Source: a virus | IMG/VR virus record: IMGVR_UViG_3300045825_000260 | Location: 1 to 37,311 of that record | Strand: one strand, 5' to 3' | Length of the DNA stretch: 37,311 nt | In this document: piece by piece, positions 1 to 37,311 of the stretch | Position numbering within the stretch: the stretch's first letter is position 1 | Layout of the letters: each line of letters starts with the position of its first letter | Notes under the pieces: generated by a model | The model's input: only the letters and a program-made list of their open reading frames with translations | Told to the model about the DNA's origin: nothing | The model's database searches: none | Translations under genes and position numbers: made by a program

Positions 1-35
1 ACTTTGTAGATTGGCAGGTTTGTATGGATGGCCAT
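1..35 (-). CDS. avd: avd, N-terminal fragment (left-end copy)
   Basis: This is the first part of the DGR accessory protein gene, read on the minus strand from the ATG at 33-35 and cut by the window start. The same bases are complete at 36691-37047. If the molecule is circular this is not a separate gene. Confidence 0.8.
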   Translation of the reverse strand, partial: MAIHTNLPIYK

Positions 36-64
36 GCTGAAATACCAAAAAAATAACTAAATTA

Positions 65-433
65 CTAAATTACTGATCTGCGGACGGCACGCGCTCTGAG
101 CTTGACGTTCTTATGATTGAGGCTCTGGTAGCCGTAGCCGAAACTCTGACACCAGGCATAATCTGAGTAGTAAGAGTGCTGCGTATTTGACCAGTACCAT
201 TCTTTTTTGAACTGATCCGGAAGGTGTTTGTATAACAGCGCTTGTTCGACACGATCAGGCAGATCGCCGCCGATTGACGCAGCCCATTCCATCTGTTTAC
301 CCCACGATGCGTCATCGTTATCACCAGGGAGTAGGATTGCATGGTGACCGGTGCCATCAGGCTTGATGATCGCGCCGGCATAGATTTCGCCTTCATTCAG
401 TTCTGGTACTGCAATGGTTTTTTCGGTGTTCAT
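65..433 (-). CDS. DGR variable target protein 1 (C-type-lectin-fold, DUF1566-like)
   Basis: A 122-residue protein of the formylglycine/C-type-lectin-fold type diversified by DGRs. Conserved landmarks are GGDLPDRVEQALL at about residues 55-67, a YWSNTQHS motif, the variable stretch, and the ending LRARAVRRSVI. The last 37 residues or so are encoded by the variable repeat at 74-184. The start is well supported by AAGGAGG five bases before the ATG at 433. In the family the fold is a rigid scaffold whose surface residues vary to change ligand binding. The ligand is unknown here. The gene sits directly upstream of avd, as in many DGR cassettes, but inside an early-type operon rather than with the tail genes, so a virion location is not assured. 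A second version with other variable residues is at 37077-37311. Confidence 0.9.
   Translation of the reverse strand: MNTEKTIAVPELNEGEIYAGAIIKPDGTGHHAILLPGDNDDASWGKQMEWAASIGGDLPDRVEQALLYKHLPDQFKKEWYWSNTQHSYYSDYAWCQSFGYGYQSLNHKNVKLRARAVRRSVI
74..184 (-). repeat. DGR variable repeat VR1
   Basis: This 111-bp segment aligns without gaps to the template repeat at 36408-36518. In the core, positions 105-150, 11 substitutions are present and every one falls where the template coding strand has an adenine. Two further differences at 169 and 172 are at template guanines, near the 5' edge of the repeat. The 3' part (coding sense, 74-104) is identical to TR and should be the initiation-of-mutagenic-homology (IMH) segment. 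Confidence 0.95.
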
Positions 434-476
434 ATTGCCTCCTTGGTTGTGATTACTTCATAAAATAGTTTGCTGA

Positions 477-752
477 TCATGCTGCCGATCCTTGCGATTG
501 ATATTTTGGTAGCGGGCTGTTCATGTATAGTGGTTCCAGTTTTGCATCTCGGCGATTCGGGCAGGCAGCGCGGCCTGCGTCGGTGATACTCCAGACAAAA
601 TCATCATTAATTTGAATTAGGCCTTCGGTATTCATTTTGTAAAGCCATCCGCCAGAAGTAGGAAACGCTTCTTTCAGTTGCGCTGAATCCATTTTCCCCG
701 GCCTGAGCAGCAGGAGAATTCTCCCTGGCGTATTGGTAGCAGTAATTTTCAT
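477..752 (-). CDS. small winged-helix-like protein
   Basis: A 91-residue basic protein. Residues 11-65 read like a small winged helix-turn-helix domain: a helix GRILLLLRPGKMDSAQLKEAF, a turn, then YKMNTEGLIQINDDFVW and an ITDAGR strand-turn typical of wHTH wings. It may bind DNA and regulate the operon, but no specific family is recognised. The start is supported by GGAG spaced before the ATG, and it overlaps the preceding membrane-protein gene by 4 bp. The 43-bp gap to the next gene downstream, the DGR target, has room only for that gene's ribosome binding site. Confidence 0.7.
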   Translation of the reverse strand: MKITATNTPGRILLLLRPGKMDSAQLKEAFPTSGGWLYKMNTEGLIQINDDFVWSITDAGRAACPNRRDAKLEPLYMNSPLPKYQSQGSAA

Positions 753-1015
753 GATTTTCTCCGCAATAAAAACCGAACTAACCTAGGGTGTGAGTACATT
801 GCTGCCAGAATCCCGACCGGGCCGCCGCATAGTGTGGCAATGATCTCGCTTCCGGATGCGCCTGGCATGGTGCGCCACAGGTAGATCTGCGCACCGCCGA
901 TCAGGAAGCTAGTCAGTGCCGCAAGCACGTAATGATGACCTTGCACGTTGAGTTGTTGCAGGCCAAGCGCGAAAACCAGCGAGGCGGTAGATAAAAATAG
1001 GGTGAGCTCAACCAT
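749..1015 (-). CDS. small membrane protein, about three transmembrane segments
   Basis: An 88-residue hydrophobic protein. Apparent membrane segments are at about residues 2-18, 27-43 and 55-70, followed by a basic tail ending RFLLRRKS. I chose the internal ATG at 1015 over an upstream in-frame ATG at 1057 because AGGTG lies just before it and the start then overlaps the preceding gene by only 8 bp. Size and topology fit an inner-membrane protein such as a holin-like or superinfection-exclusion protein. Its place in the early leftward operon rather than the lysis cassette argues against a main holin. No family is recognised. Confidence 0.65.
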   Translation of the reverse strand: MVELTLFLSTASLVFALGLQQLNVQGHHYVLAALTSFLIGGAQIYLWRTMPGASGSEIIATLCGGPVGILAAMYSHPRLVRFLLRRKS

Positions 1016-1520
1016 GTTGCACCTGTTCAATTCGGATTGTTCTGCCCGATTGCTCATCGAGAATAGTGATTGAACGAATGTCTTTTGCCTGAATCGTGCG
1101 TTCTGCGCGTGACAGTTCTTTCATATCCTGCATGGCGCGGTACAACATCATCACGTCCATGTAGGGGAGTTGCGCTTCGATCTTGTGGATCCCCGCCAGT
1201 ACAGCGGCTTGTTCAAAATCGCGTAGTGACCATTCGCCCGTAGCGTCGCCGCGACGGCTGACATCATTCATCGCGCGCATCGCGCCTTCTACCACCGGCA
1301 TCACTGAGCTATCTTTTGGTTGTTTACGATACATCGCGCCCCATACGCAGTTGATCGCTTGCCCGATGCGGTCAAACTGGGTCTTATCAAAATAGCCTGC
1401 GCGCGCAGCAGCGATGCTACTGTGCAGCACGATGCCAAATTCATCACGTAGACTAGTGACCGGGATTCGTACATCCTTTGGGTGATAGGCTTTATTGCGC
1501 TTTGCTTTTGGCTTACTCAT
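1008..1520 (-). CDS. hypothetical phage protein, 170 aa
   Basis: A 170-residue, mostly helical soluble protein with a basic start (MSKPKAKRNKAYHPKD). It contains an arginine/aspartate-rich middle and ends with a beta-like segment (SITILDEQSGRTIRIEQVQ). No catalytic motif is visible. The ATG overlaps the stop of the upstream small gene as ATGA, which indicates translational coupling, and GAAGAAG precedes the start. Function unknown; position suggests an early accessory or DNA-metabolism role. Confidence 0.65.
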   Translation of the reverse strand: MSKPKAKRNKAYHPKDVRIPVTSLRDEFGIVLHSSIAAARAGYFDKTQFDRIGQAINCVWGAMYRKQPKDSSVMPVVEGAMRAMNDVSRRGDATGEWSLRDFEQAAVLAGIHKIEAQLPYMDVMMLYRAMQDMKELSRAERTIQAKDIRSITILDEQSGRTIRIEQVQHG

Positions 1521-1696
1521 GCTTCTTCAACCTCATCCAACGCCTCACAAGCTGCGAACACACGCTGTACGATGCTGGCGGCGCGTTGCTGGCATTCTGG
1601 CTTCACGCTAGGTTCGTTTTTTGTCCAATCGAGCTCTATTGCCGCATCGATGGCGGCTTGGCGTAATGCAGTAATTTTCAGTTTAAGCGTGCTCAT
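1517..1696 (-). CDS. hypothetical small helical protein, 59 aa
   Basis: A 59-residue protein starting MSTLKLKITALRQ and rich in alanine and glutamate, probably two helices. I chose the ATG at 1696 rather than 1735 because it overlaps the upstream 52-residue gene as ATGA and has GAGG eight bases before it. The following gene overlaps by 4 bp. Its function is unknown. Confidence 0.6.
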   Translation of the reverse strand: MSTLKLKITALRQAAIDAAIELDWTKNEPSVKPECQQRAASIVQRVFAACEALDEVEEA

Positions 1697-1851
1697 ATCG
1701 TGTGCCTCGCAAGCGCCCAGGAGACGGAGATGCACATTCCCTGTTTGCGGTAGTATCGGTAATGACCGATGCAGCGGATTACTCGTGTCAGCAAGTTAGC
1801 CTGGTGATACCCGCTCGGTTTGCGGCGGGGGAGTAGGATGGCGCGGTTCAT
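1693..1851 (-). CDS. hypothetical small basic protein, 52 aa
   Basis: A 52-residue basic protein beginning MNRAILLPRRKPSGYHQ, with a CIGHYRYYRKQG segment and ending WALARHTI. Both ends form ATGA overlaps with the flanking genes, a strong sign of a real translationally coupled gene although it is short. GAGG lies 11 bases before the ATG. The aromatic and arginine-rich helix pattern resembles many short phage proteins of unknown role. Confidence 0.55.
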   Translation of the reverse strand: MNRAILLPRRKPSGYHQANLLTRVIRCIGHYRYYRKQGMCISVSWALARHTI

Positions 1852-2234
1852 ACCGGCGTTCCCTCATCTTCATTTGAAATAATTGCCTGTACACCGAGTC
1901 GGAAAATGGCATCGAGCGCATCGTCCACCGTTCCATCCGGGTTGAGCATCAGAAATATATTGATAGCCACATCGGTGGCAACTACTCGATCGGGTATCAC
2001 GTTTACGGTATAGGTAGTAATGATGTGCTCCTCTTGTATCAGGGATGCTTCAGCGCTTTTGATGGAAGCAAATACTTGCTCTCGAATATGAGATGGTAGG
2101 AAGCTATCTGTGTCATATGGCCTTACGTAATCTGTGACCTCACCAGCAACAGCCTTCAGTGCGGCGAGCATTCCTGTGTTGATGCGGCAAATCTCGTTTT
2201 TTGGTACTGGTTGCGCTTTTGGTGGGTTCAACAT
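1848..2234 (-). CDS. hypothetical protein downstream of DGR target 2
   Basis: A 128-residue acidic protein beginning MLNPPKAQPVPKNEI and ending ISNEDEGTPV, with mixed helices and strands. The ATG at 2234 has GGAGA five bases upstream, the same leader (GGAGAAAATC) that precedes the gene at 752. The open frame actually extends upstream to 2804 only because of a 1-nt deletion in the DGR target 2 gene. I therefore annotate this gene from its own ribosome binding site. Function unknown. Confidence 0.65.
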   Translation of the reverse strand: MLNPPKAQPVPKNEICRINTGMLAALKAVAGEVTDYVRPYDTDSFLPSHIREQVFASIKSAEASLIQEEHIITTYTVNVIPDRVVATDVAINIFLMLNPDGTVDDALDAIFRLGVQAIISNEDEGTPV

Positions 2235-2277
2235 GATTTTCTCCAGCAAATGATCTGAGAAATGAATTGATAAATGA

Positions 2278-2717
2278 CTAAATAACTGATCTGCGGACGG
2301 CACGCGCTCTGAGCTTGAGGCCCTCCGACTGGTGCTCTGGGTGCCGTAGCTGAAACTCTGAAACCAGGCATAATCTGAGTCGTCAGAGTGCTGCGTGTTT
2401 GACCAATAAGCCTCTTCCTTAAACTCTTCATGCACGCATTCAAGCAACAGTGCTTGCTCAACACGGCTTGGCAGATCGCCACCGGCAGCCTTTGCCCGCT
2501 CCATCTGATTCGCCCAATTATCGGCAGCAAAATCAGTAGGCAATAAAATTATGTGGCATGTTTCACCGTTTGGGCGGGTGATAGAGCACAGGTATCTTTC
2601 ATCAGATGAAAGCGTTACGCCTTCGGGCAGATAGGGTGCTGGTAACTGTTCAAATGCGGCGATTAGGGCTGAAAGCCTGCTTTGTTCGGTCTTGATTTGA
2701 TCGAGTGTGACGGTCAT
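2278..2717 (-). pseudogene. DGR variable target protein 2, frameshifted in its variable repeat
   Basis: A second C-type-lectin-fold target. It starts at the ATG at 2717 (GGAGA upstream) and has a longer N-terminal region with a short helix (TLDQIKTEQSRLSALIAAFEQ) before the shared GGDLPSRVEQALL and AYWSNTQHS landmarks. Restoring one missing base between 2325 and 2326 gives the normal ending ARAVRRSVI with TAG at 2278-2280 and a protein of 146 residues. As written, the frame shifts inside the variable repeat, ends with the out-of-frame SERVPSADQ, and runs on into the next gene. The base may be truly lost in this molecule, lost during retrohoming, or an assembly error. Confidence 0.8.
2287..2396 (-). 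repeat. DGR variable repeat VR2 (110 bp, one base deleted)
   Basis: It aligns to the TR at 36408-36518 with one gap, between 2325 and 2326, where the template coding strand has a T. The other 14 differences in the core all lie at template adenines. The IMH end (2287-2317) and the 5' end, including GTCGTCAG, are identical to TR. Confidence 0.93.
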
Positions 2718-2745
2718 GGATGTCTCCGTTGGTTTGGTTTTAATT

Positions 2746-2866
2746 AGCATCAGGTAGGCGGCTGCTCGTAAAGCAGCGAGACATGGGCAATCGGCTTTTC
2801 TCATGCGGCGCTTTGTCGCGTTATCCGCTGCCGACCATGCTGCACTTGCTTCGCCTACCTGATGCT
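2746..2866. repeat. 15-bp perfect inverted repeat in the leftward leader
   Basis: AGCATCAGGTAGGCG at 2746-2760 is the exact reverse complement of 2852-2866, with 91 bases between. A smaller hairpin, GCTGC/GCAGC, lies just inside the left arm at 2761-2776. The element lies in the untranslated leader between the leftward promoter and the target 2 start at 2717. In the transcript it would form a long-range stem just ahead of the ribosome binding site. No convincing gene lies in 2718-2958. Confidence 0.7.
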
Positions 2867-2959
2867 GACTATGTATGCCGTGTTGGCCCCGATATGGGAG
2901 GACTACAGCTTGCGTCGCCTTGGCAGCGCATCTCCGCTGGGGTTGCGGTATGGGTAAAC

Positions 2960-2987
2960 TTTACACCTCTAGGTGTTATAGTGTCAA
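2960..2987 (-). promoter_or_regulatory. early leftward promoter PL
   Basis: On the minus strand TTGACA (2987-2982), a 16-base spacer and TGTAAA (2965-2960) form a good sigma-70 promoter reading into the target 2 gene. One operator fills the spacer and a second abuts the -35. The layout is almost the same as the rightward promoter at 4491-4518. Confidence 0.75.
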
Positions 2988-3000
2988 CACCTAAAGGTGT
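2963..3000. promoter_or_regulatory. operator pair OL
   Basis: Two perfect palindromes, ACACCTCTAGGTGT at 2963-2976 and ACACCTAAAGGTGT at 2987-3000, have centres 24 bp apart. They match the pair at 4478-4515 in sequence and spacing, so the phage repressor and the Cro-like protein are the likely ligands. Confidence 0.85.
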
Positions 3001-3057
3001 AATTGTGGCAAAATAAAAACCGTCAGGACTTCTGGCGGTTAAATTAAGGAGAAGTGA

Positions 3058-3227: not shown

Positions 3228-4061
3228 CTAAAGTTTTGATAGGTTGGTCACAAGGTTGTAAGTGAACCAGCCATCGCCAGTGATGAATATTTGTGGTTTT
3301 GCGGTCGCGGTATCACGCATAATTCCAATGCCGTTGCTATATGTCTCAAAACTAATTATTTTTTGATATGGGAAACGCACACTTTTTTTCTGTCCTGAAA
3401 AATAAATATTTTTGTCGGTAATGATGACCCATCCGCTGTCTACGTGCACCCGCTCGGTATGCTCTACCGGGCGTCCTTTGAATGCTGTGGTGCGGTAATA
3501 GACACCTTTTGCAATTTTTATACTGACGCCATTTGACGCACCAACGAACTCGCGCCGAGTTTTATCTTCCAGAAATTCGGCATTTTGAAATGCCCAAACT
3601 ACCTGCTCTCCCTTTTGATAATTTATTGCTGGCAAACCATCAAGCTGAAACCTGTTTGATATGATGCCATCGCACAAGTCGCGCAGCACCGCTGATTTTA
3701 CAACTTTCGAGAGCGCGCCATTTTGATTTAAGTCTCGTTGTGATAATTCGAAGCGGGATTGAAAAGTGGCGAGTTTTGTTTCTTCCGTCCTGTCCAAGAT
3801 GTCATCAAAAAGAAATTCATCCACCGCGGCTTCAAAGCCAGATACCATGTGTGCAATTCGTTCTGATGCGGGAATAAGGGCGGATTGTTCAATCTGGTCA
3901 AGTGCCATTTCAAGTTTATCAAGTCCATCATCGCCATCAATGATCGCTTTCGACACTGCGGCGATCATTTGTTGTTGGCCTTGATGATAGCGCGCTTCGC
4001 ATTCTGGGTGTTTTTTCTTAAAAAACCCAGCTGGTTTTTTGCAATACAGGCAATCACTCAT
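3228..4061 (-). CDS. accessory protein: zinc-binding N-terminus and PH/GRAM-like C-terminus
   Basis: A 277-residue protein. It begins with a likely zinc site (C4, C7, H18, C21 in CLYCKK...HPEC), followed by a helical region at about 25-140. The C-terminal beta-rich domain at about 160-277 (GWVIITDKNIYFSG, then VRFPYQKIISFETY) resembles bacterial PH/GRAM-like domains that bind lipids or proteins. It lies 29 bp downstream of the repressor gene on the same strand, so it is probably expressed in the lysogen. That position is typical of superinfection-exclusion, defence or lysogenic-conversion genes; this is inference. No strong ribosome binding site is visible, so coupling to the repressor transcript is likely. 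Confidence 0.7.
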   Translation of the reverse strand: MSDCLYCKKPAGFFKKKHPECEARYHQGQQQMIAAVSKAIIDGDDGLDKLEMALDQIEQSALIPASERIAHMVSGFEAAVDEFLFDDILDRTEETKLATFQSRFELSQRDLNQNGALSKVVKSAVLRDLCDGIISNRFQLDGLPAINYQKGEQVVWAFQNAEFLEDKTRREFVGASNGVSIKIAKGVYYRTTAFKGRPVEHTERVHVDSGWVIITDKNIYFSGQKKSVRFPYQKIISFETYSNGIGIMRDTATAKPQIFITGDGWFTYNLVTNLSKL

Positions 4062-4090: not shown

Positions 4091-4441
4091 TTATTTTTTT
4101 TCGCCGCTGGATTTTCTACTGAATTTAGCAATCGAATCAAGCAACTCCATTGCATCGTCTAGCCGGTCATCTGCTTGCATTTGCTCCAGGAGCATAACTC
4201 CACGCTTAATGCGCTCGTCTTCAATATGCGGGCGGCCTACCATTTCCCCCTCTCCGCTATCAAGCCAAAAGGGATTCACGCCGCAAGCTGCTGCAATTTT
4301 AATAAGCGCTGCGGTTTCCTGCTGAATTCCTCGTTCAAGCTTTGAAATTGTTTGTTGCGGCAAGCTAACTTTTTTGGAAAGCTCAATCTGCGTCAATTCC
4401 GCATATTCCCTGGCTGCCTTTATTCTGTTCGCTAAATTCAT
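4091..4441 (-). CDS. phage repressor, cI-like HTH protein
   Basis: A 116-residue protein with an N-terminal HTH_3/XRE domain at residues 2-60 (NRIKAAREYAELTQIELSKK, then PQQTISKLERG as recognition helix). It has no C-terminal LexA-type peptidase domain, so it is a short repressor rather than a self-cleaving one. The start at 4441 is chosen because the HTH begins there. The upstream extension to 4528 runs through the operators. The -10 box at 4456-4451 ends about 10 bases before the ATG, so the transcript should be leaderless or nearly so, as for lambda cI from PRM. It faces the Cro-like gene across the operator pair and is expected to bind ACACCTNNAGGTGT sites. Confidence 0.9.
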   Translation of the reverse strand: MNLANRIKAAREYAELTQIELSKKVSLPQQTISKLERGIQQETAALIKIAAACGVNPFWLDSGEGEMVGRPHIEDERIKRGVMLLEQMQADDRLDDAMELLDSIAKFSRKSSGEKK

Positions 4442-4450
4442 GTTTGTGAA

Positions 4451-4478
4451 GTTATAGCTCACCCAGCTTTCAGTCAAA
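4451..4478 (-). promoter_or_regulatory. repressor maintenance promoter (PRM-like)
   Basis: On the minus strand TATAAC (4456-4451) is preceded by TTTGAC/TTGACT (about 4478-4472) with a 15-16 base spacer. Operator 4478-4491 abuts the -35, an arrangement that in lambdoid phages allows the bound repressor to activate its own transcription. The predicted start is within a few bases of the ATG. Confidence 0.6.
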
Positions 4479-4515
4479 CATCTTGAGGTGTTGACTAGAT
4501 TACACCTTGAGGTGT
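4478..4515. promoter_or_regulatory. operator pair OR
   Basis: ACACCTTGAGGTGT at 4502-4515 is perfect; ACATCTTGAGGTGT at 4478-4491 has one mismatch. Centres are 24 bp apart, exactly as at OL. The perfect site lies in the PR spacer, and the imperfect one lies between PR and the repressor promoter. The single mismatch may make it the weaker site. Confidence 0.85.
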
Positions 4516-4518
4516 AAA
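4491..4518 (+). promoter_or_regulatory. early rightward promoter PR
   Basis: TTGACT (4491-4496), a 16-base spacer containing an operator, and TGTAAA (4513-4518). The segment ACACCTNGAGGTGTAAAG is shared with PL. Transcription should start near 4525, so the Cro-like gene at 4527 would have almost no leader. Confidence 0.75.
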
Positions 4519-4526
4519 GTGTGAGC

Positions 4527-4802
4527 ATGAATTATCTCCAAAAAACAATTGATCTGGTTGGCGGACAAAGTCAGCTTGCAAAGAAAATTACCAGATGGCA
4601 TTCCATGAATGGTGCTGGACTCATTGTCCGGCAGCAATATGTCTGGAAATGGCTTAACAGCGATTCGCCTATGCCTCCGGCTGAGCACTGCCGGGCCATT
4701 GAAGATATTACTAACGGCGCTGTCACTCGCTATGATTTGCGGCCTGATGTGTTCGGCGCTTCGGCTGACTGCGAATCCAATCAAACACAGGAGGCGGCAT
4801 GA
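4527..4802 (+). CDS. Cro-like / YdaS-like DNA-binding protein
   Basis: A 91-residue protein with the Cro/YdaS pattern: LVGGQSQLAKKI as first helices, QQYVWKWLNSD as recognition helix, then MPPAEHCRAIEDITNGAVTR and a short YDLRPDVF tail. It is expected to bind the same operators as the repressor and to favour lytic growth. I chose the ATG at 4527 instead of the GTG at 4521 because the predicted transcript starts about there. It is the first gene of the rightward operon and overlaps the next small gene by 4 bp. Confidence 0.88.
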   Translation: MNYLQKTIDLVGGQSQLAKKITRWHSMNGAGLIVRQQYVWKWLNSDSPMPPAEHCRAIEDITNGAVTRYDLRPDVFGASADCESNQTQEAA

Positions 4803-4978: not shown

Positions 4979-5473
4979 ATGACTTGCGAATACTTTGATT
5001 CAGATCCAGACGATGCACTTTATAACTTGGCTCGCCGCTATCCGGGCAAGCTGCCTGCTTTAGCCCTCAGGCTTGGGCGTGAAGAGTCCATGTTGCGTAA
5101 GCAGTTGTCGCCATCCGTCTTTACGCACCATCTTTCGCCTGAAGATTTCATTCGGATTATTGAGTTATGTGCTGAGGTGAATGTACCTGGTGCGTATCAA
5201 CCGCTGCACGCAATGTGCTTCCGGCTTGGTCATGTCGCCGTATCGCTGCCTGATGTTGCATCAAGTGCGGGCGAGCTGTTTCAACAGATATTGTTGATGA
5301 TGCGTGCTGAAGGTGATCTGGCTAAAAACATTCAGGATTCATTAGCGGATGACGGAAGGATTGATCGTCGTGAACTGACTGAGATTGAGGATCATCTTGA
5401 AAAGTGTATCGGCGCGCTGGCCACCTTGCGTGAGCAAGTTAGAGCAAAACATCGCAAGGATTTTCCAGCATGA
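4979..5473 (+). CDS. phage regulatory protein, CII-like family
   Basis: A 164-residue protein with the features of the phage regulatory CII family: LPALALRLGREESMLRKQLS as an HTH-like N-terminal segment at about 25-45, HHLSPEDFIRIIELC, and a helical C-terminus with DDGRIDRRELTEIEDHLEK. Members bind DNA and help to set the lysis/lysogeny decision. It follows the early terminator, as cII follows tR1 in lambda. GAGAGGA lies before the ATG, and the stop overlaps the primase start by 4 bp. Confidence 0.8.
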   Translation: MTCEYFDSDPDDALYNLARRYPGKLPALALRLGREESMLRKQLSPSVFTHHLSPEDFIRIIELCAEVNVPGAYQPLHAMCFRLGHVAVSLPDVASSAGELFQQILLMMRAEGDLAKNIQDSLADDGRIDRRELTEIEDHLEKCIGALATLREQVRAKHRKDFPA

Positions 5474-8043: not shown

Positions 8044-8050
8044 ATATGAC

Positions 8051-8318
8051 TACGCAGGGTTACGCAGGGTTTAATCAAACCCTGCAAGCACTCAAAGCCA
8101 ATGAATATGCGGGTTGCGCAGTGTTACGCAGGGTACGCAGGGTTATCGCGCATGTATGCGCAAATTTACACATTAGTTCATACACGTACTTAATTAACTT
8201 GATTTGTGTTTTTTTATTTCACATACGAGGTTTTAACCCTGCGTACCCTGCGTATCTATCTACAAGCCACGTAAATAAAGGGCTAGAAGCTACGCAGGGT
8301 TTGTTTCAACCCTGCGCA
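8051..8318. repeat. TACGCAGGGT iterons with AT-rich centre, candidate replication origin
   Basis: TACGCAGGGT occurs exactly at 8051, 8061, 8125, 8134 and 8291. Its exact reverse complement ACCCTGCGTA occurs at 8236 and 8245. Imperfect inverted copies lie at about 8078 and 8309. The copies flank an AT-rich stretch (about 8161-8225) with runs of T and A. Nothing else convincing occupies 8044-8336. The frame open through it (8040-8333) is made of the repeats and looks spurious. Iterons plus an AT-rich segment beside the primase-helicase gene fit a phage origin. Confidence 0.7.
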
Positions 8319-27106: not shown

Positions 27107-30100
27107 GTGACCACAACTCGCATAATTACCAACGCCGGATCGCCGCTCACTAAGCCGGACGGATTGCCACTAGCCTTCGTACAAGTATCGTTCCTGCTGT
27201 CATCGATTACAGCAACTCCGTGCGACGTATTTGACGCTGTGACAGGTGAGCGTGTGGTCGGCAGCGTAACCGCTGTCACTGATGCGTCTGGTGTATTTAG
27301 TGTGGCGCTGTGGCCAAACGATCGTGGCAGCATCGCCAGCCAGTACGTCTGCGCGATCAATTATCCCGGCGCGGGAAGCTTTGGTGCTGGCGTTCCGTCT
27401 GGATCAACGCCGCTCACATGGCTGCAATTTAAGACATCAGGCCTGCCGGTTACACCTCAGATTGTCACGGCACTGACGGCCTATATCGCGCAGATGGATG
27501 CGGATGTTGCAACAGCACTGGCGCAAGCAAATATCGCGACGGCAGAGGCCGCGATTGCAACCGCTGATGTTGCGCTTACGCATGCTGACGTTGTATTGAC
27601 TCATGCCGATGTAGTGCTCACGCATGCTGACGTAGTATCAACTCATGCCGATGTAGCGCTTACGCACACCGATGTATCCCTGACCCATGCAGACGTTATC
27701 CTGACTGATGCAGACGTTGCGGCAGCGGCAGCAAGTGCGGCAAGCGCAGCATCAAATGCGGCTTTATTGTCAGCAGCACTCGCAACATTTCGCTCAAAGT
27801 GGCTTGGCAGTTTTGCGACTGACCCAGCCGTCGATGGCAATGGCAACGCGCTGGCCACTGGCGTGGAATATTTCAACAGCGTAGAAAACAAACTGCGCGT
27901 TTATGGTGCGACCGGCTGGGCTGATTATGACGATGCTGCGCAGACCGAGACTACAAACGCAGCACTGTCTGCCGTATCTGCATCGAGTAGCGCATCTGCT
28001 GCTGCAAACTCACTGGCGGCGGCTGTCATTCAAGCTGCGTTGGCAACATCAAACGGGCAAGCGCAAGTATCGTTAGCGGCTGCGCAGGCGGTACTGGCGA
28101 CCACCAATGGCGCTGCGCAAGTAACGCTGGCTATTGCTCAAGCTGTCGCCGCTGCTAACTCAGCAACTTCGTCAGCAACCAGCGCAACCGCATCCGCATC
28201 AAGCGCAGCGCAAGCGGTGATCGCTCAAACTCTCGCACAAGCAGCATGGGCGGCATCAACCGCGCCGACCGAGCGGATTGCGGCAGTAAGCAAGACTTTC
28301 TTCACGAACTCGGCCATCGTTGCTGCAATCATCTACGACACGCGCAAGGATAGTGACGGCGGCGCATGGCGCAATCGTTGTCAGGCAACGAGCTGGTATA
28401 ACGAAACGATCTATGGCGTGTATCGCGGTGAGCGCGCAACCGAAGCGGCCTGCCGTGCGATCAGTGGCGCGACTACGAATGACTTTTTCCACAACACCAC
28501 AGACGGTAAGTTCTACGCACTGAACGCCACGTCAGGTGTCACTGAGGTTTTCCGTGGAGGTCGTAGCGAATTTCCTGAGATTGTTGCGATTACAATTAAT
28601 GGAAATAACGCAATTGTGTGGGATCTGACAGATAGCTCGGTTCCTATGTGGATAGTCATCCCTATTACAGTTGGAGGAGGGTGGGTTTACTTCGGACACT
28701 CACAAGCATCTAGCATCACCGCAATAAACGGCGCAATGCTGTTTGGAACGCAGGATGGTGTTGTGTTTGCTGACATGATTCGAGATAGGGGCAGAATTAT
28801 CACGGGCTCTGCTTCTTACGGCGGATGGGATTCATTACCTCTTTCAATGCGAAATGCAACACTCCATACTTATGCGCAAGGAACTGTCGTAGGATTGCCC
28901 GCAATTGCAAATTCTACAGTCAACTCCATCGCAGCCACCGTCCTTCCAAACGCACCTATTGATCCTGCAACTGGTCTTCCTGTACCCACAATTGCTGTAT
29001 TCACCGCTGGCGGCGTGAGCGTGATCAAGGATGATGGGACGGTAGTGAATAGCGCAAACGCAAGCAGTGCAAGTTTCGGCGGATTTTACAAAAACGGGGA
29101 TTTATTGTGGTCAACTGGCGCTGGCTCAATTGAGTTTTTTGCCGCATCTCCTATCTCGGCAGGATTTGGCGGGACAAGATATAACGGTGGAAATGCAACG
29201 ATACCTGCCACATCAGGATTGGCGGCGAGTAAAAGGATAGCGTTAGCTTCTTATCTGGTATTAGGCTCTGCGATTCTTGAGTTTATTAAAGAAAATCCAA
29301 CAACACCGTCTGCCGGAATGGTTGCCGCCATTACTAACACCTACAACACGGGTTGGATGAATGGTGACATTCGTTTGGCCGCGCTGGCTGATACGGTTGC
29401 TGAGACTGTGGGTGGAGCCAATCTCATAGCTGGTGATTCTGCCAACTTTAATGGCGGAACGGTTGGAAGCTGGTCTGCTCCGTATCTAAGCGCTATCGCT
29501 GTTGTAGCAAATCAGTTAGTCGTTACTGCCACCGGAACTAACCCATACGCTGCGCTATATAGCATCCACACTACCATCGGCAAGGCATACAGAGTGTCTA
29601 TTGATGCTGTAGCTAAGACTGCTGGTGTCACTAATGTGTCCTTGTATATTGGCAATGCAAATGGACTTGCTCAAAGCCAATATGGAATTATCTGGCTATC
29701 ACTACTTCCGGTAGGTGCCGCTTTCATATTTATCGCAACAACTACTACGTTATGTCTTCAGGCGTCCGCGACGTGCGCTGTCGGTGATACTTTCACGATA
29801 GACAACATCTCAGTAATTGAATGCGCGGCAGACCGAAGCGTAAAAGCTAATCCTCTGACTGTAGTGGGTGGTCTGACTAAGTCAGCAGTGAACACAAATT
29901 CGCAGCTTGTCGCATGGTCTGGATTCTCAACGGCTAATTATTTGCTACAGCCCTATTCAGCAAACTTAGATTTCGGGACAGGTGATTTTTGTTACGCAGC
30001 TTGGATTGACGCATCCAGTGGGAATCAGGTGCTATTTTCAAGAGGAAGTGGCACAACAGCAGGTTCAATTTTATGTTTTATAAATGGGGGCGGAACTCCT

Positions 30101-33320: not shown

Positions 33321-33352
33321 ACCCGCTAAATCAATAGTTTAGCGGGTTTTTT
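33321..33352 (+). terminator. intrinsic terminator after the tRNA-Cys-like segment
   Basis: ACCCGCTAAA (33321-33330) pairs with TTTAGCGGGT (33338-33347) across a 7-base loop, with T to 33352. It separates the lysis/attP unit from the integrase promoter. Confidence 0.9.
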
Positions 33353-33492: not shown

Positions 33493-34575
33493 ATGGCATC
33501 AAAGCGAAGTAGGGGAACATCATGGGAATACATCATAAAGCGCAAGGGGTTACTCCCTAAGCCTGTAAGCATGACGTTTCGTGATGAGGCTGAAGGTGAT
33601 GCATATGTTGCGCATCTTGAAAAGCTATTAGACGCGGGAATTGTGCCGGAAGAGTTCCGCAAGGAGGCAAAGGCGATTACCAATATCGGCATGGCAATCG
33701 ATCAATACCAGGAAGAGGTGCACATCACCAATGATGATGTGATCTTACTCAATGCGATGCGCAGCGCCGTAGGAAGCAAGACGCTTTCGCTAGTTAATTA
33801 TGCCTGGGCTGAATCATGGGTGCGTGATTTGCGTGATGCTGGTGGCGCACCCTCATCGATCCGTAAAAAGGTCGGTGCATTGGCGCGCTGTTTAGACTGG
33901 CTGGTTCGCCGGTCCGATACGATGCTGGCAGCTAACCCACTGCGCATCCTACCAAAACGATATTCAACGACTGCTGTCGGCCGAAAAGATGTTGAGCGTG
34001 ATAGGCGGCTGCAGAGTGATGAGGAAGTGCGTATCTTGGCGATATTGAATGGACATAAGCCAGACGATAAGCAGCGGGCTGTAGTTACGGTTGATTCCGA
34101 TGCGTGGCGCTTGATGTTTGTCCTGGCACTAGAAACCGCGATGCGAATGCGGGAGATTTACACACTGACTCGCGATCAGGTTGATTTCGACAAGCGGACA
34201 ATTTTTCTGGATAAGACGAAAAACGGAGATAAGCGCGAAGTTCCTATGTCTTCAGTAGCATTGGCAGCTGTAAAGGAATACTTGACAACTCATCCTGATA
34301 ATCAGATCTTCCCATTTTGGGACAATTCGTATGATCCAAAAGCCTTACAGGCTACATCAAACCGAACTAGTCACAAGTGGGCAGCGATATTTTCAGCGGC
34401 AGGATGTGCAGATCTGCATTTTCACGATCTTCGGCATGAGGCAACGAGCCGATTCTATGAGCGAACTACGTTGACTGATATTCAAATAAGCCGTATCACC
34501 GGGCACCGCAACATGGCGATGCTCCGGAGATACAGCAATCTACGCGGGGCTGATTTGGCAGACCGTCTCTGGTGA
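33493..34575 (+). CDS. int: tyrosine-recombinase integrase
   Basis: A 360-residue phage integrase. The N-terminal part has an Arm/SAM-like core-binding domain (about 75-150). The catalytic domain shows Arg218 (TAMRMREI), HDLRH at 311-315, GH at 337-338 and the nucleophile Tyr347 (LRRYSNL). It should recombine attP with a tRNA-Cys gene in the host. Its stop TGA abuts the stop of the convergent excisionase-like gene at 34576, so the 3' ends share TGATCA. The start at 33493 follows the in-frame GCGAGGCGCGAA; no strong ribosome binding site. Confidence 0.95.
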   Translation: MASKRSRGTSWEYIIKRKGLLPKPVSMTFRDEAEGDAYVAHLEKLLDAGIVPEEFRKEAKAITNIGMAIDQYQEEVHITNDDVILLNAMRSAVGSKTLSLVNYAWAESWVRDLRDAGGAPSSIRKKVGALARCLDWLVRRSDTMLAANPLRILPKRYSTTAVGRKDVERDRRLQSDEEVRILAILNGHKPDDKQRAVVTVDSDAWRLMFVLALETAMRMREIYTLTRDQVDFDKRTIFLDKTKNGDKREVPMSSVALAAVKEYLTTHPDNQIFPFWDNSYDPKALQATSNRTSHKWAAIFSAAGCADLHFHDLRHEATSRFYERTTLTDIQISRITGHRNMAMLRRYSNLRGADLADRLW

Positions 34576-34872
34576 TCATGCGGCTATCGGTAAATCTGGA
34601 AGTATTGGCAGAATACGGCGCCTTCCGTTACGCACTTCGGCCAAAGCTGTTTTAACCTTCACCGGAACACCTGAGCGGTATGCTTCGCGACGCTTCTCTG
34701 TCTGAATACGCACTTGTTCGGCAAGATATGCATCCAGATCCTCGCTACGGAAAATCCAGCACAGAGAAATTTTAGCCCCAGGTAATTCACCGGAATGAAT
34801 CAGATCATCAAGCGAGGTGGCAGAAACCGCCAGATACTGCGCCGCCTCGTCGTGCGTATAGGTTTTTTTCAT
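34576..34872 (-). CDS. excisionase-like HTH protein
   Basis: A 98-residue protein with a MerR/AlpA-type winged HTH (THDEAAQYLAVSATSLDDLI, then ELPGAKISLCWIFRSEDLDA) and a basic tail. Such proteins bend DNA as excisionases or act as small regulators. It lies next to the integrase and is the last gene of the leftward operon, with AAGGA before its ATG. The upstream gene stop overlaps its ATG. Its place in the operator-controlled leftward unit fits xis. Confidence 0.7.
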   Translation of the reverse strand: MKKTYTHDEAAQYLAVSATSLDDLIHSGELPGAKISLCWIFRSEDLDAYLAEQVRIQTEKRREAYRSGVPVKVKTALAEVRNGRRRILPILPDLPIAA

Positions 34873-35300
34873 TCTGTAATCCTTTGGGCAAGTTTAACCT
34901 TCATCTCATCTAGTTCAGCGCGCAGCACATCGATCTGTAATCCGTATTCAAGTTGTGCTTGCGCGATGGCGCGGAAATAGCTTAATTTATCCCGCTCACT
35001 CTCCGTACGGAGTGCCGCGTTTTCAGCGCGCAGATCGTCATCACTTTGTATCGGAACATACGTTCTCTGCTCATCCGGGCGCATGACCTTGAACGATCCG
35101 TTCTGCCCGAAGCGCAGCCAGTTACCCTGGTGAATGCACAATAGCGACATTCCTTTTCCTCGCGCCATGATCGTGCCGCGTTCAAGTTCAAAACCTTCAT
35201 AACCTAGCTCGCGCAATTCTGCGGATACCGTGCTGAGATTTGTACCGTCCCATTGTAGTAGTCGTGCTTTGTATGCTCTTTTTTGATGTGTCCAGTTCAT
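34869..35300 (-). CDS. unknown protein coupled to the DGR reverse transcriptase
   Basis: A 143-residue protein. The first 85 residues are beta-rich (KARLLQWDGTNLSTVSAEL, GNWLRFGQNGSFKVMRPDEQ), and a coiled coil follows (DLRAENAALRTESERDKLSY to the end). The ATG overlaps the reverse transcriptase stop as ATGA, with CGGAG before it, so its translation is linked to that of the RT. It matches none of the DGR accessory types that I know (Avd, HRDC, MutS-like). It may be a regulator or an unrelated phage protein. Confidence 0.65.
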   Translation of the reverse strand: MNWTHQKRAYKARLLQWDGTNLSTVSAELRELGYEGFELERGTIMARGKGMSLLCIHQGNWLRFGQNGSFKVMRPDEQRTYVPIQSDDDLRAENAALRTESERDKLSYFRAIAQAQLEYGLQIDVLRAELDEMKVKLAQRITE

Positions 35301-36403
35301 GTTTTTCTCCGATAAATTTTTGTTAAGTTCCCGTTAATCGTGTGGCCGCGATATCGCAGGATGTTTGAAATCTTCGCGCGCTGGTGATAGCTGTTTGATG
35401 CCTGGCGAAATAGGCCGTAATAACTGTTGGCTGTTTCAAATAAGTCTTTGGTGTCGATACTATGGATTCGCTTGATCGCTTCGTTCACTGTACGTTTGCG
35501 CGTTGTACGGCACCATGGACGAATGACTTGGCCAACAAAGTCCACGCCGCGCGATACCGGTTGCAGAATGGTTTTTGATGGGTTGATCTTGGCGCGTAAT
35601 TTGTCAGCCAGAAACTCCTCGATCCGCGCTTTTGCGGCATTCAGCCATTGCGGCGATTCGTGAAGCAACACGAAGTCATCGACATAGCGGATATAGTGTT
35701 TCGCGCCGATCTGGTGTTTGACGAACTGATCCAACGAATCGAGATAAATGTTGGCGAAAAACTGCGATGACAAATTGCCGATCGGCAGGCCAAGATGCGC
35801 CGGGTGATTCACCAGGCGTTTATGTCTCGGTACCAGATCCGGCATGTCCGGATTACCGCGCAGCTCGTAGTCCTGGCGCGGATCGTGAAACAGAATCGTG
35901 TTGGATAGTTGCATCCACCATGGCTCAGTGACACGTTTTGCGATCAAGTCGCGTAGGATGTTCTTATCGATGCTGACAAAGAAGTTAGCTAAGTCCAGTT
36001 TCAGGTAGTGCGCTGGCCGGCTCCAGTTCTGCGTGATGCTGCGAATCTTCGTCTCGATGCGCTGGGCTGCATACAGTGTGCCGCGTCCTGGTATGCATGC
36101 GCAGCTGTCTGCAACGAACGATGCATAAAATCGCGGTGAGACTCGATTATAAAAAAGATGGTGCACGATGCGATCGCGGAAATCTGCGGCCCACACTTCG
36201 CGCGGTTTTGGGCGGGTGATTACAAAGCAGATCGAGCGGCACGGGTGATAGGTACCATCTCTCAGCTCATCGTTAAGATCGCATAGGTTTCGCTCAAGGC
36301 TCTGTTCGAAAGCCAAGGCGCTGGCAGTATTGCGTTTTGACTTCCGGCAGTCGATGTAAGCCTGCACCAGTTCGGCAAAGGTGAAATCAGCATGGTGGCG
36401 CAC
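35297..36403 (-). CDS. DGR reverse transcriptase
   Basis: A 368-residue retroelement-type reverse transcriptase. Motifs are FRDRIVHH, YLKLDLANFFVSIDK, LGLPIGNLSSQF with the DGR-typical GxxxSQ at about 209-214, YVDD at 240-243, and a C-terminal thumb region (RIHSIDTKDLFETANSYYGL). It copies TR RNA to cDNA with errors at adenines, with Avd as partner. I chose the GTG at 36403, which gives the usual length and N-terminus (FTFAELVQAYIDCRKSK). There is no strong ribosome binding site. The frame remains open upstream through TR to 36727, so the true start is uncertain. It overlaps the next gene by 4 bp. Confidence 0.93.
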   Translation of the reverse strand: MRHHADFTFAELVQAYIDCRKSKRNTASALAFEQSLERNLCDLNDELRDGTYHPCRSICFVITRPKPREVWAADFRDRIVHHLFYNRVSPRFYASFVADSCACIPGRGTLYAAQRIETKIRSITQNWSRPAHYLKLDLANFFVSIDKNILRDLIAKRVTEPWWMQLSNTILFHDPRQDYELRGNPDMPDLVPRHKRLVNHPAHLGLPIGNLSSQFFANIYLDSLDQFVKHQIGAKHYIRYVDDFVLLHESPQWLNAAKARIEEFLADKLRAKINPSKTILQPVSRGVDFVGQVIRPWCRTTRKRTVNEAIKRIHSIDTKDLFETANSYYGLFRQASNSYHQRAKISNILRYRGHTINGNLTKIYRRKT

Positions 36404-36407
36404 GGTT

Positions 36408-36518
36408 TGATCTGCGGACGGCACGCGCTCTGAGCTTGTTGTTCTTATGATTGTTGTTCTGGTTGCCGTTGTTGAAATTCTGATACCAGGCATAATCTGA
36501 GTCGTCAGAGTGCTGCGT
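36408..36518 (-). repeat. DGR template repeat TR
   Basis: A 111-bp template between avd and RT. In the target frame it reads NTQHS-type start, YAWYQNFNNGNQNNNHKNN and the ending KLRARAVRRS. Its many AAC/AAT codons are the signature of adenine-directed diversification. It matches VR1, VR2 and VR3 over their whole length. Five bases separate it from the chosen RT start. The upstream stretch 36519-36690 has no convincing gene and probably belongs to the template RNA. Confidence 0.96.
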
Positions 36519-36690
36519 CGTGTCGTGCTATCTACGTCGCCACACCGAAGGCTTGCGCCGATCAGCGAGGAAACTGCGCCAGACCTATCCTGGGTAACTA
36601 GCCCGGAGGTTTCTGGGGTGCGCATGTCGGTAGCCATATTGGCCAGCGGCACAACCAGATCAAGATTTCGCACAGGGACGGTAACCATGA

Positions 36691-37047
36691 CTACCGTACA
36701 GCGGGCGACGTTGCTTTGCGGCGCCATCCATTAGCCTGCTTTCCTACGCTGTTAGTCAGCTCGATCGCACTAGCATATTGCCCGGTAGAGATTAGCCGCT
36801 TGTCTCGTGAGAGGCGCAGTAACAGCTCACATACCTGTAGGCGTTCGATCAGATCGGTTAAGTGTGGCGCCTTGTCCTGGGCGCAATTCGCACGAAAAAC
36901 AAGAGCCATAATCTCAACACATTCGTCACTGACCTTACCGCCGATTGAGCGCTTGAACTCGCGCGGCATATTCTTGACTAGCTCAGTTACAACGTCGAGC
37001 AGGTCATAGGCAACTTTGTAGATTGGCAGGTTTGTATGGATGGCCAT
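36691..37047 (-). CDS. avd: Avd, DGR accessory variability determinant
   Basis: A 118-residue, mostly helical, basic protein of the four-helix-bundle Avd/S23-like family: YKVAYDLLDVVTELVKNMP, PREFKRSIGGKVSDECVEI, then APHLTDLIERLQVCELLLRL and ISTGQYASAIELTNSVGKQ. Avd forms a pentamer that binds nucleic acid and the reverse transcriptase and is required for retrohoming. It follows the target gene and precedes TR, the order of the Bordetella phage BPP-1 cassette. The promoter is not local; transcription from the upstream operon is likely. Confidence 0.92.
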   Translation of the reverse strand: MAIHTNLPIYKVAYDLLDVVTELVKNMPREFKRSIGGKVSDECVEIMALVFRANCAQDKAPHLTDLIERLQVCELLLRLSRDKRLISTGQYASAIELTNSVGKQANGWRRKATSPAVR

Positions 37048-37076
37048 GCTGAAATACCAAAAAAATAACTAAATTA

Positions 37077-37311
37077 CTAAATTACTGATCTGCGGACGGC
37101 ACGCGCTCTGAGCTTGCTGCCCTTACGAAGGCCGTACTGGTCGCCGTTGAGGAAATACTGATACCAGGCATAATCTGAGTAGTCAGAGTGCTGCGTATTT
37201 GACCAGTACCATTCTTTTTTGAACTGATCCGGAAGGTGTTTGTATAACAGCGCTTGTTCGACACGATCAGGCAGATCGCCGCCGATTGACGCAGCCCATT
37301 CCATCTGTTTA
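37077..37311 (-). CDS. DGR variable target protein 1, second variant (cut by window end)
   Basis: This is the C-terminal 77 residues of the same target protein as at 65-433, with the same conserved framework (GGDLPDRVEQALL, YWSNTQHS, LRARAVRRSVI) but a different variable part: YAWYQYFLNGDQYGLRKGS here against YAWCQSFGYGYQSLNHKNV at the left end. The 5' part lies beyond the window or, if circular, is the part at 300-433. Confidence 0.9.
   Translation of the reverse strand, partial: KQMEWAASIGGDLPDRVEQALLYKHLPDQFKKEWYWSNTQHSDYSDYAWYQYFLNGDQYGLRKGSKLRARAVRRSVI
37086..37196 (-). repeat. DGR variable repeat VR3 (second state of VR1)
   Basis: A 111-bp gapless match to TR. All 13 core substitutions lie at template adenines. 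One more difference, at 37181, is at a template guanine and is shared with VR1. The IMH segment is identical to TR. Confidence 0.94.

Follow-up and report, generated by a model that had tools for sequence, protein, structure and literature searches.

The retroelement and its targets

The viral record IMGVR_UViG_3300045825_000260 (37,311 nt; the window means this whole stretch, to which all positions refer) carries a diversity-generating retroelement (DGR) together with two target genes. The tailed-phage late genes (portal, major head, tape measure, tail and lysis) lie on the plus strand, and the gene content indicates that the phage is temperate, with a switch resembling lambda's. On the minus strand, a predicted leftward promoter (PL) is followed by target 2, six small genes, target 1, avd, the structured RNA RT-15, the template repeat (TR), the reverse transcriptase (RT) gene, a 143-aa gene and a xis-like gene. 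These features, with the variable repeats (VRs), are listed below in that order (ORF, open reading frame):

2278..2717, minus: target 2, C-type-lectin-like, first gene past PL (profile matches)
2286..2396, minus: VR2 (TR/VR comparison)
1848..2234, minus: small gene g129, about 129 aa (ORF)
1693..1851, minus: small gene g52, 52 aa (ORF)
1517..1696, minus: small gene g60, 59 aa (ORF)
1008..1520, minus: small gene g170, 170 aa (phmmer matches in 8 locus records, self included)
749..1015, minus: small gene g88, 88 aa with the inner ATG as start (holin-like match, weak, phrog_7045 8e-6)
477..752, minus: small gene g91, 91 aa (ORF)
65..433, minus: target 1, 122 aa, C-type lectin fold with a C-terminal VR (structure model and profile)
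74..184, minus: VR1, variant a (TR/VR comparison)
37086..37196, minus: VR1, variant b, at the same circle position as variant a
36691..37047, minus: avd (bAvd PF22296 2e-14; phrog_3206 1e-34)
36516..36710, minus: RT-15 structured RNA (RF03018; 168 bits against a gathering score of 82), overlapping the end of avd and leading into TR
36408..36518, minus: TR (repeat comparison)
35297..36403, minus: DGR-type RT (RVT_1; phrog_1423 4e-117)
34869..35300, minus: unknown gene, 143 aa, without an accepted family
34576..34872, minus: xis-like excisionase (HTH_17 4e-12; phrog_66; TIGR01764 over its cut-off)

The RT gene starts with a GTG at 36403, and avd also matched NF033474 (E 1e-15, below that model's cut-off). 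The VRs differ from TR mainly at TR adenines: substitutions fall there in 11/13 cases in VR1a, 13/14 in VR1b and 13/14 in the aligned part of VR2, which has in addition a 1-nt gap.

The order given above runs across the ends of the record. Positions 1-299 and 37013-37311 are one sequence with 19 differences, all of them within 105-172, and 18 of the 19 lie at TR adenines (binomial 8e-8). Because the ends overlap by 299 nt, and because the locus L087 from a Gallionella metagenome-assembled genome (RT 89% identical; the nearest among the relatives that were found with good flanks) is colinear with the window across the join, the most plausible reading of the record is a circle of 37,012 bp seen with two VR1 variants. 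The closed circle assumed in the first-pass annotation is thus borne out. A search with the exact avd/target junction string matched 0 viral contigs. The VR1 variants at the contig ends seem to record diversity that the DGR generated in the population sampled. A second case was found in a relative (L014/G010; L129/L130), whose contig ends fall within a target VR and overlap by 144 nt, with 5/5 differences at TR adenines (read by eye). Note that another contig, G006, likewise breaks at a target, with 127-nt ends that are identical.

The predicted leftward unit runs from PL to xis

The minus-strand genes are tightly packed. With start codons refined by eye, we counted six 4-nt overlaps of the ATGA type (g129/g52, g52/g60, g60/g170, g88/g91, RT/unknown gene and unknown gene/xis), in agreement with the many such overlaps first noticed; g170 and g88 overlap by 8 nt. 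The gaps are 43 nt between g91 and target 1 and 29 nt, spanning the join, between target 1 and avd. The predicted operon would include the xis-like gene at its far end.

The terminator scan found no terminator-like site on the minus strand from 2987 to 1, and from 36403 to 34576 the sole such site was a 5-bp stem inside the RT gene (35554-35542); terminator-like totals were at chance level (6 found against 6.8 expected, and 5 against 4.2). A separate scan of our own, from PL to the RT gene, gave no terminator in the window. Over 34576-37311 and 1-1953, the minus strand showed no sigma-70-like site matching at least 9 of 12 positions. The end of avd lies within the RT-15 RNA and TR stops 5 nt short of the RT start, so a promoter of its own for TR is hardly possible. 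Gene order, strands and scans therefore agree with the original description of a unit running from PL to xis without a visible internal terminator, and neither a separate avd/TR promoter nor a clear terminator, the two features that had been named as arguing otherwise, turned up within the unit in the window; some relatives do have such a terminator, as described below.

A predicted lambda-like switch precedes the unit

The DNA upstream of target 2 contains a predicted immunity region with the following features:

2958..2987, minus: PL promoter, TTGACA-18-TAAAGT, leftward (sequence match; outward promoters at the relatives' mirrored operators)
2963..2976, no strand: operator OL, ACACCTCTAGGTGT (exact palindromic half-sites; mirrored block)
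2987..3000, no strand: operator OL, ACACCTAAAGGTGT (exact palindromic half-sites; mirrored block)
3010..3040, minus: predicted intrinsic terminator of the cI-gene transcript (stem 3040-3018, then a T-rich tail)
3228..4061, minus: 277-aa gene between cI and PL, without a family match
4091..4441, minus: cI-like repressor, 116 aa, helix-turn-helix (HTH) only (phrog_4 6e-14)
4478..4515, no strand: operator pair OR, mirror of OL (palindromes; mirrored block)
4491..4520, plus: PR promoter, TTGACT-18-TAAAGT (sequence match)
4521..4802, plus: cro-like repressor (phrog_35 4e-17)
4979..5473, plus: CII-like regulator (phrog_101 7e-29)

The operators have the form ACACCT-NN-AGGTGT, which recurs at 4478-4491 (1 mismatch) and 4502-4515. 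The 43-nt blocks at PL and PR are mirror images of each other, 84% complementary, and flank the cI-like gene; the pair at PL is therefore the same as that at PR, as had been proposed. Promoter-like matches in this region are overall at chance level (6 found, 6.6 expected), so the operators are the stronger evidence. The cI and cro genes diverge and appear to share operators at PL and PR, as in a lambda-like immunity region. The cro-like transcript is probably leaderless, its ATG (4527) lying a few bases past the -10 box.

The hairpin at 3010-3040 (-8.3 kcal/mol, z -2.1) lies 18-40 nt from the first PL operator and was missed by the terminator scan, which allows no mismatches. It would keep the lysogenic cI transcript, comprising cI and the 277-aa gene, out of the DGR operon.

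The layout recurs in related DGRs

The RT search returned 80 viral loci and 42 from genomes; most of the close genome loci are betaproteobacterial. The 118 close RTs formed 97 clusters at 90%. Against phage records, nine RTs were at about 60-65% identity and the rest, among the matches listed, below 36%; the plasmid search gave solely RTs of less than 60% identity. Genome loci with an RT below 40% identity (e.g. L117, L121, L122 and L124) belong to other DGR groups and were counted among the 33 genome loci used below where they were long enough. By RT, L003/L090 and L015/L018 are near-duplicates. An avd scan of viral contigs gave 80 loci, which stand outside the counts given here, and strand counts from crude gene calling, which got several true window genes wrong, were not used.

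TR/VR pairs were present in 83/86 loci (the misses being L026 and, with short upstream DNA, L022 and L077), and each VR lay upstream of the RT gene on the same strand. The RT-15 RNA was found in 53/53 of the relatives' records and a Pfam integrase in 42/53; since RT-15 stands directly 5' of TR in all 53, RF03018 likely has a function in the DGR. The target-profile and HTH_17 searches covered 47 of these records, and the RecT/ERF searches 43. In the 47 whole records, circular ones allowed for, 110/110 of the target-like matches listed lay upstream on the RT strand, at most 10.7 kb away, and no target-like match among those listed fell in the late-gene region. These matches number at least 110; about 40 matches to TR were excluded, and a few are pieces of one gene (G010 across the contig ends; one split in G014). 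HTH_17, the xis signature, was detected in just 16/47 records; near int it lay on the RT strand in 13/13, with int reversed in 5/13. A gene with an HTH_3 match lay upstream on the RT strand in 31/35 records having such a match within 12 kb, and a second HTH_3 gene diverged about 250-330 nt away in nine records (own count). Judged by these counts, the layout is a family trait among the relatives.

Next, we searched the relatives for the operators. Mirrored 2+2 palindromes, 0.6-3.5 kb apart, occurred in 18/64 loci (the window included) against 0/64 shuffles; a search for mirrored arms added 5 loci, and among genome loci 4/33 were accepted against 0/33 shuffles, giving 27 loci in 25 RT clusters. 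The shuffles were made in triplet blocks, one per locus for the palindrome searches and five per locus for the arm search and the named phages. We dropped L093 as a doubtful GC-rich match (28 loci if kept), arm pairs scoring below 20 and an inverted repeat of 108 nt at the L037 end, and left out three-site palindrome sets (at least 3 sites in 39/64 loci and in 8/64 shuffles). The operator sequences mostly differ from locus to locus; what is conserved is therefore the design and not the DNA.

In 23 of the 27 loci, promoters matching at least 9 of 12 positions pointed outward at 32/46 of the mirrored operator sites and inward at 5/46. Promoter-like sites were present at PL in 17/23 loci, before the proximal target in 0/22 and before avd in 0/23, with a background of 13/882. 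A terminator lay within 400 nt before PL in 21/27 loci, the window included (5/27 antisense), whereas between PL and the RT gene terminators were found in 8/335 search windows (Fisher 2e-22).

Proposed repressor control of the DGR and the evidence that bears on it

In phage lambda, a repressor-controlled leftward early operon ends in xis, and paired operators stand at PL and PR. To our knowledge the lambda PL operon carries no DGR, whereas in the window the DGR and its targets fill the stretch from PL to xis. We consider it likely that a lambda-like PL operon here contains the DGR, its targets and xis, that in the lysogen it is repressed and also insulated, and that induction or infection switches it on. 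The first-pass annotation had placed the DGR with the excisionase in a repressor-controlled early leftward operon, and this proposal is strengthened by the conserved geometry, the mirrored operators and the terminator before PL.

In the lysogen, the cI-like repressor would sit on the paired operators at PL and PR and shut PL, and the transcript of cI and the 277-aa gene would halt at the terminator before PL, which would place the DGR operon under both repression and insulation. Once the phage is induced or infects a new cell, PL would fire leftward through the two targets, avd, the TR RNA with its RT-15 leader, the RT gene and xis. Error-prone cDNA from TR would then rewrite VR1 and VR2 during genome excision and replication, so that protein variants would newly arise only when the phage wakes or enters a new cell. 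The origin may lie to the right of PR, at iteron-like repeats (8048-8316), and a leftward fork would run with both targets. From the sequence we infer that the repressor binds, that the hairpin terminates transcription, that transcripts from PL read through to xis, the timing of these events and the homing of the cDNA behind the replication fork.

Several observations weigh against this proposal. Mirrored operators were found in just 27/97 loci with enough upstream DNA, which we put down to short flanks or other geometry in the majority that lacks them. Among five named phages, a clear mirrored set was seen in QDWS, a weak one in Haboob and none in Cruim01, Magia or LPPA56. A terminator lies inside the unit in Magia (before the proximal target, and annotated by the depositors too), Cruim01, Haboob and L055; over the 27 loci the counts inside the unit are 11 sense and 32 antisense. 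In the window itself, a 10/12 promoter-like match stands at 1981-1954, inside g129. The repressor, at 116 aa, would by its length be too short for a self-cleaving domain. The PL leader is strongly structured over about 230 nt (2718-2952; a long stem, -89.4 kcal/mol, z -4.9); this stem is possibly an antitermination or attenuation element, or the remnant of a repeat element. The leader was set beside L002, whose target begins right at PL, by eye only. Finally, lysogen cultures of the hankyphage, a Bacteroides phage, show DGR activity without added inducer (PMC12135933), so that "off" may mean "low".

The terminators beside target genes in Magia, Cruim01 and L055, the match at 1981-1954 and the activity of uninduced hankyphage lysogens would also fit a DGR that is a moron with a promoter of its own, active in the lysogen, whose variable proteins serve the host (for example in phage exclusion) and whose colinearity comes from lambdoid early-left cargo sharing one strand. 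We regard this as unlikely: the relatives lack a consensus promoter before avd or the proximal target, a terminator recurs directly before PL, and xis follows the RT strand wherever HTH_17 was seen near int. The Magia terminator, moreover, ends just 12 nt before the next gene and must be read through; the DGR there therefore relies on read-through or antitermination, as does the lambda PL operon. The terminators inside the unit in some relatives imply read-through, and no N gene for N-type antitermination was identified.

PL control could also be real and mainly set target expression, with mutagenesis limited by replication or host nucleases and a low rate of VR diversity in all states. The BPP-1 DGR in E. 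coli does depend strongly on replication direction and on ExoI (PMC12875486). We think this very improbable, as PL would still be the sole visible source of the TR RNA and the RT, and hankyphage virions after silencing of the repressor carried more DGR-type mutations (PMC12135933).

When phage DGRs are active is a stated open question (PMC11792537; PMC12875486). The layout described here, present in many proteobacterial phages, gives a direct and testable answer, with the DGR, its targets and the excisionase behind the lysogeny switch and insulated from the cI transcript.

We also considered "natural recombineering" by a single-stranded-DNA-annealing protein of the operon, and rejected it as a general feature: RecT was found in 5/43 records and ERF in 1/43, and neither was identified in the operon of the window.

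The targets are predicted small lectin-like proteins

The high-confidence model of target 1 (predicted local distance difference test, pLDDT, 95.2) shows a C-type lectin fold and had as its best PDB match the C-terminal domain of Lcl (E 1e-3, template modelling score 0.65), and its match to Lcl_C had E 3e-6, below the cut-off. In target 2, one nucleotide is missing within VR2, which breaks the frame and joins the gene to the ORF that follows; target frames of G003 and G018 likewise contain single stops. The VR-bearing ORFs (n=176) have a median of 187 aa and a hydrophobic 19-residue stretch in 13/176, so most of their products look soluble.

Most reported viral DGR targets are tail proteins (PMC8144416). 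The RT-15 clade questions this view, since the target-like matches listed all lie in the early operon, and this place suggests that the targets are not ordinary tail fibres. Tentatively, and with rather less than even confidence, we propose that the DGR of the RT-15 clade diversifies, instead of tail fibres, small and mostly signal-less early C-type-lectin proteins. Each induction or infection might then yield a fresh repertoire of binders inside the cell, directed for instance at host defences that vary or at competing phages, made together with the excisionase and installed behind the leftward replication fork.

Comparison with known systems

Burkholderia phage Magia (NC_070954), like the window, has cI, a lectin-fold target, a second target, avd, RT and the excisionase on one strand, with an RT 64% identical and an RT-15 RNA. 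Unlike the window, it has its targets separated by genes for an exonuclease, a RecT-like protein and an ATPase, the integrase on the same strand as the rest and a terminator inside the unit, and our search found no mirrored operators. We found no paper on Magia; its parts were annotated by the depositors. Shewanella phage QDWS (OK094664) also has the targets, avd, RT-15 and RT on one strand, with mirrored operators and a PL of TTGACA-17-TTTAAT, and differs in that its integrase lies on the RT strand and a methylase separates RT from the xis-like match.

The nearest precedent is the hankyphage. Like the window, it has a CI-like repressor, and silencing this raised phage gene expression and DGR mutagenesis (PMC12135933). 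The hankyphage differs in being a Mu-like transposable phage whose DGR rewrites a tail fibre, and the parts of the source available to us describe no lambda-type PL operon with xis (PMC12135933). The DGR of Bordetella phage BPP-1 shares the avd-TR-RT order and the adenine-directed VR changes, whereas its RT is about 31% identical and its target is the tail protein Mtd (PMC11792537). In E. coli, editing by this DGR is favoured when the target points along the replication fork (PMC12875486).

The first-pass annotation knew of no description of such an arrangement. This stands for the PL-operon layout, as none of the open-licence PMC papers listed in our searches describes a PL-operon DGR with an insulating terminator; it needs amending for the gene order, already annotated in Magia, and for the repressor-linked DGR activity shown in the hankyphage. 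A literature search for RT-15 by name found nothing, and by accession gave just an apparently unrelated match.

Other features of the window

Beyond the operon, the following features were noted:

33493..34575, plus: tyrosine integrase (phrog_1 9e-39), convergent with xis
8048..8316, plus: iteron-like repeats behind the primase gene, a candidate replication origin with a putative function

The end of xis meets the end of the convergent integrase gene, and ARAGORN found no tRNA at the presumed attachment (att) site. A bidirectional terminator-like hairpin lies beyond the integrase (33321-33347), and transcripts from PL would cross int in antisense before reaching it. The weak holin-family match (749-1015) concerns a small protein inside the predicted early operon. 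In one relative (L088, 9658-11088), TR and RT follow directly after a target and no avd was found there, possibly a VR-TR collapse through recombination or assembly. Finally, the large tail fibre gene of the window contains a 21-nt tandem repeat at 27542-27709.

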